Under the pieces are notes generated by a model that ran no database searches, was not told where the DNA came from, and saw only the letters and a program-made list of their open reading frames with translations. From Montifringilla adamsi (taxonomy: Eukaryota; Chordata; Aves; Passeriformes; Passeridae): 64,000 bases of DNA. Each line of letters starts with the position of its first letter. The stretch's first letter is position 1. Positions 14,350 to 14,918 of this stretch are shown here, piece by piece. Position numbers and translations under genes: made by a program. The stretch lies in assembly GCA_017590115.1 (NCBI GenBank), contig JAGGNK010003335.1, positions 62,001 through 126,000 on the forward strand, read 5' to 3'.

Positions 14350-14545
14350 CACAGGGGTTTCACGGTGTTTATTGATCAAGCATGAGCTCCTAGGCAATTG
14401 CACCAGCCACTTGTGCTAGAGCCTGAGGTGTCACACGTCCATCCCCAGCATCAGAGAGGGCTGCAGCCAGCTGGTCACGGTGCCAGCACCTCCACGAGGC
14501 CCAGGAACAGGCCCAGCCATGGCCTGGAGACGGGGAGATGGAAAC
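14350..14545 (-). other. EIF4EBP3: EIF4EBP3 3' UTR and poly(A) signal
   Basis: Minus-strand AATAAA at 14368-14373 (plus strand tttatt). In the alternate ANKHD1 read-through frame, 14431-14545 is coding rather than UTR. Confidence 0.75.
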
Positions 14546-14918
14546 TCAGATGTCCATCTCAAACTGGTCTTGATCTGCAAGGGCATGGACGGATACAGGA
14601 GCAGGGTTAGGATGGGGCTGGCTTGGCAGACACGGGCAGGCAAAGGAAGCAGGAGCTGCAACTGGGGCCAGGTTGGGATCTCGCCCTGTCCCACGCCCCA
14701 GGCAGGCGGTCCCTGGGCAGGGGCCGTGGCCCTGGGCTGCTCACCTGGCATGGCCTCTTCGCTCTCATTCCGCCCCTTGAGCTCCTCCAGCTTGACGAGG
14801 CTGGACTGGGCCAGGGATGTGACACCGGGGGTCGGGGGCAGGCAGCAGGGAGGGGTCCTGGCCGCGGGTGAATTCTTGCACTCCAGCAGGAACTTGCGGT
14901 CGCAGATGATGCGGGTAC
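14431..14918 (-). CDS. Alternate-frame C-terminus of the ANKHD1-EIF4EBP3 read-through (MASK-BP3 type)
   Basis: ANKHD1 exon 18651-18815 ends in phase 0 (DAQQ). Splicing it to EIF4EBP3 exon 2 in place of the last ANKHD1 exon enters exon 2 in a frame starting VPASSATASSCW, different from 4E-BP3. This frame is open through exon 2 (58 codons) and the next exon down to TGA at 14431-14433 (47 more codons; ending LMLGMDV). Mammals are known to make such a MASK-BP3 alternate-frame fusion. Whether this bird expresses it is inference from phase and openness. Confidence 0.6.
14546..14574 (-). CDS. EIF4EBP3: EIF4EBP3 terminal coding exon (TOS motif)
   Basis: Encodes the end of the protein, QDQFEMDI, then TGA (complement of 14546-14548). 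FEMDI is the TOR-signalling motif shared by 4E-BP proteins. Confidence 0.88.
14546..14918 (-). CDS. EIF4EBP3: EIF4EBP3, eIF4E-binding protein 3, exons 2 and 3 (first exon not found)
   Basis: 4E-BP3 blocks cap-dependent translation by competing with eIF4G for eIF4E. Exon 2 is 14745-14918 (acceptor ttttggcag, donor gtgagc) and exon 3 is 14546-14574 (acceptor ttgcag). In the 4E-BP3 frame they read TRIICDRKFLLECKNSP, ARTPPCCLP, LVKLEELKG and end DQDQFEMDI, so the C-terminal TOS motif FEMDI (mTORC1/raptor docking) is intact. The eIF4E-binding motif, normally YDRKFLL, reads CDRKFLL: the key tyrosine is replaced (TGC). The expected TTPGGT-type first exon is not seen between 14919 and 18139. The gene lies just downstream of ANKHD1 on the same strand, as in mammals where the two are spliced together. 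Confidence 0.88.
14745..14918 (-). CDS. EIF4EBP3: EIF4EBP3 exon 2
   Basis: 174 nt, entered one base into a codon (G|GT ACC). It carries the degenerate eIF4E-binding motif CDRKFLL and the conserved CKNSP and RTPPCCLP stretches. It is open in two frames: 4E-BP3, and the frame reached from ANKHD1. Confidence 0.88.

Follow-up and report, generated by a model that had tools for sequence, protein, structure and literature searches.

Few vertebrate exons are dual-coding, and the importance of the second frame is usually disputed. Exon 2 of EIF4EBP3 raises this problem for birds. The exon is common to 4E-BP3 and to fusions of ANKHD1, and two questions follow: in which frame the fusions read it, and which of its frames is maintained by selection. 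In mammals, a read-through of ANKHD1 into EIF4EBP3, named MASK-BP3, was reportedly described by Poulin et al. in 2003.

The window analyzed in this study is a stretch of 64,000 nt from Montifringilla adamsi (assembly GCA_017590115.1, contig JAGGNK010003335.1, positions 62,001–126,000 of the forward strand). EIF4EBP3 was found directly downstream of ANKHD1 on the same strand, which is the neighborhood expected for MASK-BP3. The three frames of exon 2 are designated A (the frame of 4E-BP3), B (the frame proposed in an earlier, sequence-only reading of the window) and C (the third frame).

Organization of the ANKHD1-EIF4EBP3 locus

The sequence-only reading had proposed that the penultimate exon of ANKHD1 is joined directly to EIF4EBP3 exon 2 and that the resulting dual-coding arrangement is conserved in birds. 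Its coordinates and frames were confirmed. The ANKHD1 exon 18815–18651 (165 nt) has a phase 0 end (...TDAQQ), exon 2 (14918–14745) is entered one base into a codon for 4E-BP3, and the first base of exon 3 is 14574. When 18651 is joined directly to 14918, the new frame opens with VPASSATASS and continues for 58 codons in exon 2 and 47 codons in exon 3 to the TGA at 14433–14431. These 47 codons had been placed past the 4E-BP3 stop, but the number counts from the start of exon 3; about 37 codons lie past that stop, which is located at 14548–14546. For frame C, exon 3 is 3′ untranslated. All features are listed in Table 1.

Table 1. Features of the ANKHD1-EIF4EBP3 locus in the window.
Feature	Position	Strand	Remarks
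ANKHD1 penultimate coding exon	18651..18815	(-)	165 nt; phase 0 end ...NSTECTDAQQ; donor CAGCAG/GTAGTG
ANKHD1 last exon, coding part (IWPGTWAPHIGNMHLKYVN, then stop)	18140..18199	(-)	ordinary C terminus
Shortened ANKHD1 last exon used in fusion	18153..18199	(-)	47 nt; internal donor CTCAA/GTACGT
AATAAA, candidate for ANKHD1's own 3′ end	17717..17722	(-)	read from the sequence only
148-bp tandem unit	16379..16674	(-)	2.0 copies, 98% alike; duplicates front of dead exon 1
Wrecked EIF4EBP3 exon 1	16340..16465	(-)	tblastn and three-frame reading
EIF4EBP3 exon 2	14745..14918	(-)	174 nt; all three frames open for at least 50 codons
Frame B, direct join from 18651	14431..14918	(-)	58 + 47 codons; 2/42 bird models
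Frame-C fusion tail (YPHHLRPQVPAGVQEFTRGQDPSLLPAPDPRCHIPGPVQPRQAGGAQGAE) with TGA (14767-14765)	14765..14917	(-)	50 codons
Tyr to Cys base	14903..14903	(-)	YDRKFLL becomes CDRKFLL; frame C keeps Leu (CTA to CTG, silent)
EIF4EBP3 exon 3 to frame-B stop	14431..14574	(-)	4E-BP3 ends ...DQDQFEMDI, then stop
AATAAA past exon 3	14368..14373	(-)	probable 3′ end signal of the fusion, judged by the bare motif

A fusion junction inside the last exon of ANKHD1

When the 4E-BP3 portion of exons 2 and 3 was used as a protein query, 103 proteins were retrieved, many of them avian. These were compared with a predicted splice form of the window in which 18815–18651, 18199–18153, 14918–14745 and exon 3 are joined. 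The +1 frame of this form reads MLSRFGLAPGHLTLETCISS-TRIICDRKF, where MLSRFGLAPGHLTLETCISS is the +1 frame of the end of the penultimate ANKHD1 exon together with the first 47 nt of the last exon. The contig proteins P0001, P0021 and P0036 start with MLSRFGLAPGHLTLETCISS and then enter exon 2, at exactly the predicted junction. All 20 residues are identical between the prediction and the three proteins, the last residue being split by the junction. A fourth bird-type contig protein (P0068) does not show the junction (1 out of 4) and seems to run on from intron-like sequence. We infer that all four are from birds and derive from assembled sequence reads. P0001 carries the same cysteine as the named passerines, and P0036 is one residue apart from the duck model P0046 over exons 2 and 3. 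The longest contigs of P0021 and P0036 have lengths of 1139 and 1188 nt, respectively, which is shorter than the intron measured in the window.

The GT of the internal donor (18152–18151) overlaps the K-Y-V codons of the ANKHD1 last exon. Splicing from 18153/18152 to 14918 leads into exon 2 in frame C (HLK-YPHHLRPQVPAGVQEF, 50 codons). In the ANKHD1 frame the message reads IWPGTWAPHIGNMHLK-YPHHLRPQVPAGVQEFTRGQDPSLLPAPDPRCHIPGPVQPRQAGGAQGAE, and the peptide YPHHLRPQVPAGVQEFTR belongs to this tail. The frame-C stop is positioned 20 nt short of the end of exon 2.

For long proteins, a search with the C and B tails (E up to 1) resulted in 42 matches, all of them bird ANKHD1 models, of which 40 carry the C tail and two the B tail. 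A spliced message that skips exon 1 of EIF4EBP3, as in MASK-BP3, is represented by the three contig proteins and by 11 of the 42 bird models. Here the proposal of the sequence-only reading has to be divided: an ANKHD1-EIF4EBP3 fusion in a second frame is conserved in birds as in mammals, but neither the junction nor the frame is the one that had been named. The 11 models and the three contig proteins depart inside the last exon of ANKHD1 instead of the end of the penultimate exon, and 40 of the 42 models that reach exon 2 in the ANKHD1 frame use C instead of B.

The linkers of the 40 frame-C models fall into 11 with the shortened last exon, four of which are falcons with an extra exon, and 29 others. 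The exact junction was found in seven models (P0118, P0119, P0121, P0124, P0125, P0142 and P0143) from hawk, eagle, emu, pheasant and woodpecker. In the Falco models P0109–P0112 an additional exon is located between the shortened last exon and exon 2, and frame C is kept.

Many of the 29 other predicted linkers resemble translated intron, which would fit the explanation that gene predictors created the frame-C models artificially, by extending ANKHD1 through neighboring open sequence, and the openness of frame C alone is a coin toss. Against this, one exact conserved splice junction is used in 11 of the 40 models. The same junction is independently shown by the three contig proteins, which were called in frame A and not in frame C. 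The artefact explanation is considered to have only the slimmest chance of being correct.

The C tail was found in passerines, falcons, an owl, hawks, a wader, fowl, ducks, geese, emu and kiwi. Compared to the window, 36 of the 40 models showed eight kinds of substitution and the loss of one codon with a final E to D change in the woodpecker; P0113, P0131, P0144 and P0145, in which the model ends diverge, are left out of this list. A Pfam search of the C and B tails gave no match.

Openness and conservation of frame B

For the openness analysis, the 4E-BP3 protein was held fixed and synonymous codons were redrawn (20,000 draws per scheme). With shuffled codons, frame B remained open throughout exon 2 in 28% of the redraws, and with GC3-weighted codons in 5%; its exon 3 part was open in 48% of base shuffles. 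The 50 open codons of frame C in exon 2, which the sequence-only reading had not pointed out, were obtained in 43–52% of the synonymous redraws. The openness of B in exon 2 (5–28%) and of C (43–52%) is within chance and therefore says little about either frame. As evidence for B or C, openness was rejected.

The functional fusion could still be the direct join from 18651 to 14918 in frame B, with 105 codons extending into exon 3. Frame B is open, and the exact junction was found in 2 of the 42 bird models, those of Lonchura striata (P0104) and Colius striatus (P0105). Against this, frame C is used in the other 40 models and in all 120 mammalian-type proteins among the matches listed (see below). 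All 44 kinds of frame-A replacement that are silent in C alter frame B, and the exon 2 part of frame B is not conserved. A certain stop was located at codon 47 of frame B in three out of three mammalian reconstructions (two species and the consensus). The sequence-only reading had expected frequent frame-B stops in other birds if its proposal was wrong; inferred stops were found at codon 29 in two sequences, P0007 (Probosciger) and P0076 (Turnix). Since the models favor C, C-silent changes alter B and B contains stops, frame B was rejected as the conserved frame, and a functional frame-B fusion is regarded as quite unlikely. The frame-B junction may represent a minor isoform, as in the Bengalese finch and mousebird models.

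In its exon 3 part, frame B of Colius and that of the window differ in only 3 of 47 residues, which is a point in favor of the frame-B fusion; most of this part is otherwise 3′ untranslated sequence. The region of exon 3 past the 4E-BP3 stop (14431–14545) seems unusually conserved between mousebird and window when translated in frame B, and frames A and C do not explain this. Either frame B or a constraint at the RNA level may be responsible.

Which frame of exon 2 is under selection

The replacement test was built on proteins. A reconstructed, ancestral-like exon 2, consistent with the bird proteins, was used as the reference, and one-step frame-A replacements were collected from 54 bird sequences over 50 shared codons. 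P0072, in which the model leaves exon 2 early, and P0092 were omitted from the replacement counts; P0092 is included in the model tally. A C-silent path was granted wherever one exists, for exon 2 and for the control alike.

In total, 44 of 62 kinds of 4E-BP3 replacement were silent in frame C, compared to an expectation of 37–45% (P 5e-8 to 3e-5 according to the transition weight applied), and 18 altered frame C; these are replacement kinds and not independent events on the tree, and P0036, P0046 and P0068 are near copies. Of the kinds present in two or more sequences, 29 of 32 were C-silent. All seven kinds found in the seven passerine sequences were C-silent as well. As a control, three ANKHD1 exons of the window were analyzed, where 71 of 265 kinds were silent in the equivalent frame, which is below the null. 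The difference between exon 2 and the control was significant (Fisher P 2e-10), the control being measured against the window itself and exon 2 against the reconstructed ancestor. A mutation bias towards the second codon position was rejected as the cause of the C-silent excess, since second-position changes made up 89 of 265 kinds in the ANKHD1 exons, below their null.

Seven changes were reconstructed from the bird-consensus exon to the window, and six of them are located at the wobble position of frame C; changes silent in both frames are invisible to this protein-based reconstruction. Within the first 32 residues, frame A is identical to its consensus in 14 of 55 bird sequences compared to 21 of 28 mammalian sequences. 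With 44 of 62 kinds C-silent in exon 2 against 71 of 265 in the control, frame A of bird 4E-BP3 varies mainly at sites that leave frame C unaltered. Judged by comparison between species and not by openness, the predicted frame C is what these data show to be the frame that matters.

It is conceivable that exon 2 is conserved for reasons at the RNA level, such as splicing signals or RNA structure, and not for a frame-C protein. The apparent conservation of exon 3 past the 4E-BP3 stop, for which frame C cannot account, is in line with this. An RNA-level constraint would, however, have no reason to direct changes to the wobble position of C, where six of the seven reconstructed changes lie, and as an explanation for exon 2 it is judged very unlikely.

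Fate of 4E-BP3 in passerines

By sequence and position, exons 2 and 3 of the window are the ortholog of EIF4EBP3 and belong to the 4E-BP family (Pfam eIF_4EBP). Unlike the members of this family, the window has a wrecked exon 1 and a cysteine in place of the motif tyrosine. A scan for the exon 1 signature motif found none between exon 2 and ANKHD1. TPG-type matches further upstream on the minus strand, at 28624 and 42226, bear no resemblance to exon 1 and were rejected. Using tblastn with vertebrate exon 1 peptides, a damaged exon 1 was detected at about 16465–16340. An overlooked intact copy in the window was likewise rejected, as the scan found none and tblastn gave the damaged one.

The dead exon contains ATSSCPIMGSHCLPI and, in a different frame, PEGCSSREGGTVCSVTPEG, with the frame change after ...LPI. 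The position of the start codon is occupied by TTG, the first frame is interrupted by an in-frame stop, and the donor apparently has GC in place of GT. No exon 1 with a start codon was found in the window. The 148-bp duplication is probably younger than the TTG change because TTG is present in both copies. Just upstream, the region at and around 16732–16764 resembles the 3′ terminus of avian CR1 elements; allowing up to 3 mismatches, no second copy was found in the window. This CR1-like insertion may have cost EIF4EBP3 its promoter.

The window reads CDRKFLL in place of an eIF4E-binding motif starting with tyrosine. The cysteine was found in all seven named passerine models and in none of the 45 named non-passerine models. 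Exon 1 was recognizable in 0 of 7 named passerine and 28 of 45 non-passerine models (Fisher P 0.0026); absence from a model says little alone, because exon 1 is also missing from 17 of the 45 named non-passerine models. At the DNA level, the damage to exon 1 is known from the window. The motif tyrosine contacts eIF4E, and the atypical binder CYFIP1 has a leucine instead (excerpt of PMC8558276). Loss of eIF4E binding by passerine 4E-BP3 is accordingly likely but not certain, since CYFIP1 binds without the tyrosine.

In the passerine sequences, exon 2 still contains no stop in frame A, and the FEMDI C terminus of 4E-BP3 (the TOS motif) is kept in the window. Passerine 4E-BP3 might thus still work via another first exon, with frame C conserved mostly as a by-product of frame A. 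Frame A is open across exons 2 and 3 of the window with FEMDI retained, and P0001 matches Pfam eIF_4EBP with 67 bits. Several observations argue against this explanation. The A replacements cluster at C-silent sites, the reverse of what is expected for an exon driven by A. Exon 1 is damaged in several ways, none of the 7 named passerine models retains the tyrosine, and the motif scan from exon 2 to the end of ANKHD1 found nothing else resembling exon 1. Upstream of exon 2, P0001 consists of out-of-frame ANKHD1 sequence, and the internal ATG lies far downstream and would be a poor start. A working 4E-BP3 in passerines is therefore rated as unlikely.

Altered forms of YDRKFLL were also found in non-passerines, YDRKFPL in Alectura and YVRKFLL in Anas, and these changes are silent in C. 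The bird 4E-BP3 proteins with an altered motif are P0012, P0036, P0039, P0046, P0051 and P0069. The decay of 4E-BP3 may thus extend to further bird lineages.

Comparison with the mammalian fusion

For mammals, a search was performed with the human frame-C and frame-B tails, resulting in 236 matches. All 120 proteins among the matches listed (118 from mammals and two contig proteins) end in the frame-C tail. The linker before this tail comprises 37 residues, the last of which is split by the junction, corresponding to 110 nt (linkers parsed in 109 of the 120 among the matches listed). This is identical to the length of 110 nt given for the human intermediate exon (excerpt of PMC6862657). P0037, which is in the 4E-BP3 frame, contains 36 whole linker codons between the end of the ANKHD1 exon and exon 2, and these also correspond to 110 nt. 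A single DNA sequence fits P0037 and the commoner linkers among the matches listed when one to three residues are set aside.

For the human MASK/EIF4EBP3 pair, 172 bases read in two frames via the intermediate exon have been described (excerpt of PMC2329644). A MASK-4E-BP3 fusion protein was reported (excerpt of PMC1450281), and in mouse the fusion message tracks Ankhd1 in some tissues with low Eif4ebp3 (excerpt of PMC2953495).

The bird fusion involves the same gene pair as MASK-BP3, skips exon 1 of 4E-BP3 and reads exon 2 in frame C. In contrast to mammals, which use the 110-nt intergenic exon, birds use the first 47 nt of the ANKHD1 last exon; the bird junction contains this shortened exon and not a 110-nt intermediate exon. 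Both linkers, 47 nt and 110 nt, leave a remainder of two when divided by three and therefore both lead into frame C. Over its first 32 residues, frame A matches the consensus more often in mammals (21 of 28 sequences) than in birds (14 of 55), and in passerines frame A appears to be dead. The bird fusion is a variant of mammalian MASK-BP3 that uses a new linker; in passerines, the original frame has apparently been lost as well.

The human INK4A/ARF exon, which is read in two frames, has been named beside MASK/EIF4EBP3 (excerpt of PMC2329644). As in INK4A/ARF, one exon contributes to two proteins in different frames and the upstream exon decides between them. Here, by contrast, the second frame belongs to the neighboring gene, and the original frame seems to be lost in one bird order.

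Among the open-licence papers searched, none with both EIF4EBP3 and passerine was found. No account of an ANKHD1 fusion or of 4E-BP3 loss in birds was found in the open-licence titles and abstract starts among the matches listed.

Proposed mechanism and implications

Taken together, it is highly probable that EIF4EBP3 exons 2 and 3 serve as an alternative end of ANKHD1 with frame C under selection, and that in passerines frame A has been lost and frame C is the main keeper of the exon. The last exon of ANKHD1 would be a composite exon. When it is polyadenylated, with cleavage perhaps at the AATAAA 17722–17717, the protein would end in ...HLKYVN. When the internal donor is used, 18152–14919 (3,234 nt) would be removed and the protein would consist of ...HLK and the 50-residue frame-C tail. 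Only the last three residues of ANKHD1 (YVN of the KYVN end) would be swapped for this tail. The fusion message would end past exon 3, probably near the AATAAA 14373–14368. The layout suggests this choice between polyadenylation and splicing. A message of this layout would be expected to escape nonsense-mediated decay, as only 20 nt separate the frame-C stop from the last exon junction.

In this model, frame C is under purifying selection across birds, and mammals arrive in it via a different linker exon. In passerines, the 4E-BP3 frame would have lost its first exon and the tyrosine contacting eIF4E, which would leave C as the main frame now keeping exon 2 intact. Translation of the frame-C tail, loss of 4E-BP3 function and loss of exon 1 in all passerines are parts of this model that we infer. 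In songbirds, the frame borrowed by ANKHD1 appears to be the main thing keeping exon 2 alive, and 4E-BP3 looks broken. We lean towards the further view that EIF4EBP3 of passerines is no longer a gene of its own, its exon 2 being kept via the ANKHD1 frame, and that the overprinted frame has outlived the original one.

The two frames thus part ways in evolution. Birds alter 4E-BP3 mostly where the ANKHD1 tail is unaffected, and passerines seem to keep the ANKHD1 tail after losing the 4E-BP3 frame. The tail of MASK-BP3, which is reached via different linker exons in birds and mammals, would become testable, as its function cannot be 4E inhibition. Passerines, which comprise more than half of the living bird species, would offer a natural background without 4E-BP3. 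Annotations of EIF4EBP3 in passerines may label a protein that is never made.

A naming error was observed for P0055 from Platysternon megacephalum: its public name is homeobox protein Hox-D10, and by sequence it is a 4E-BP3.
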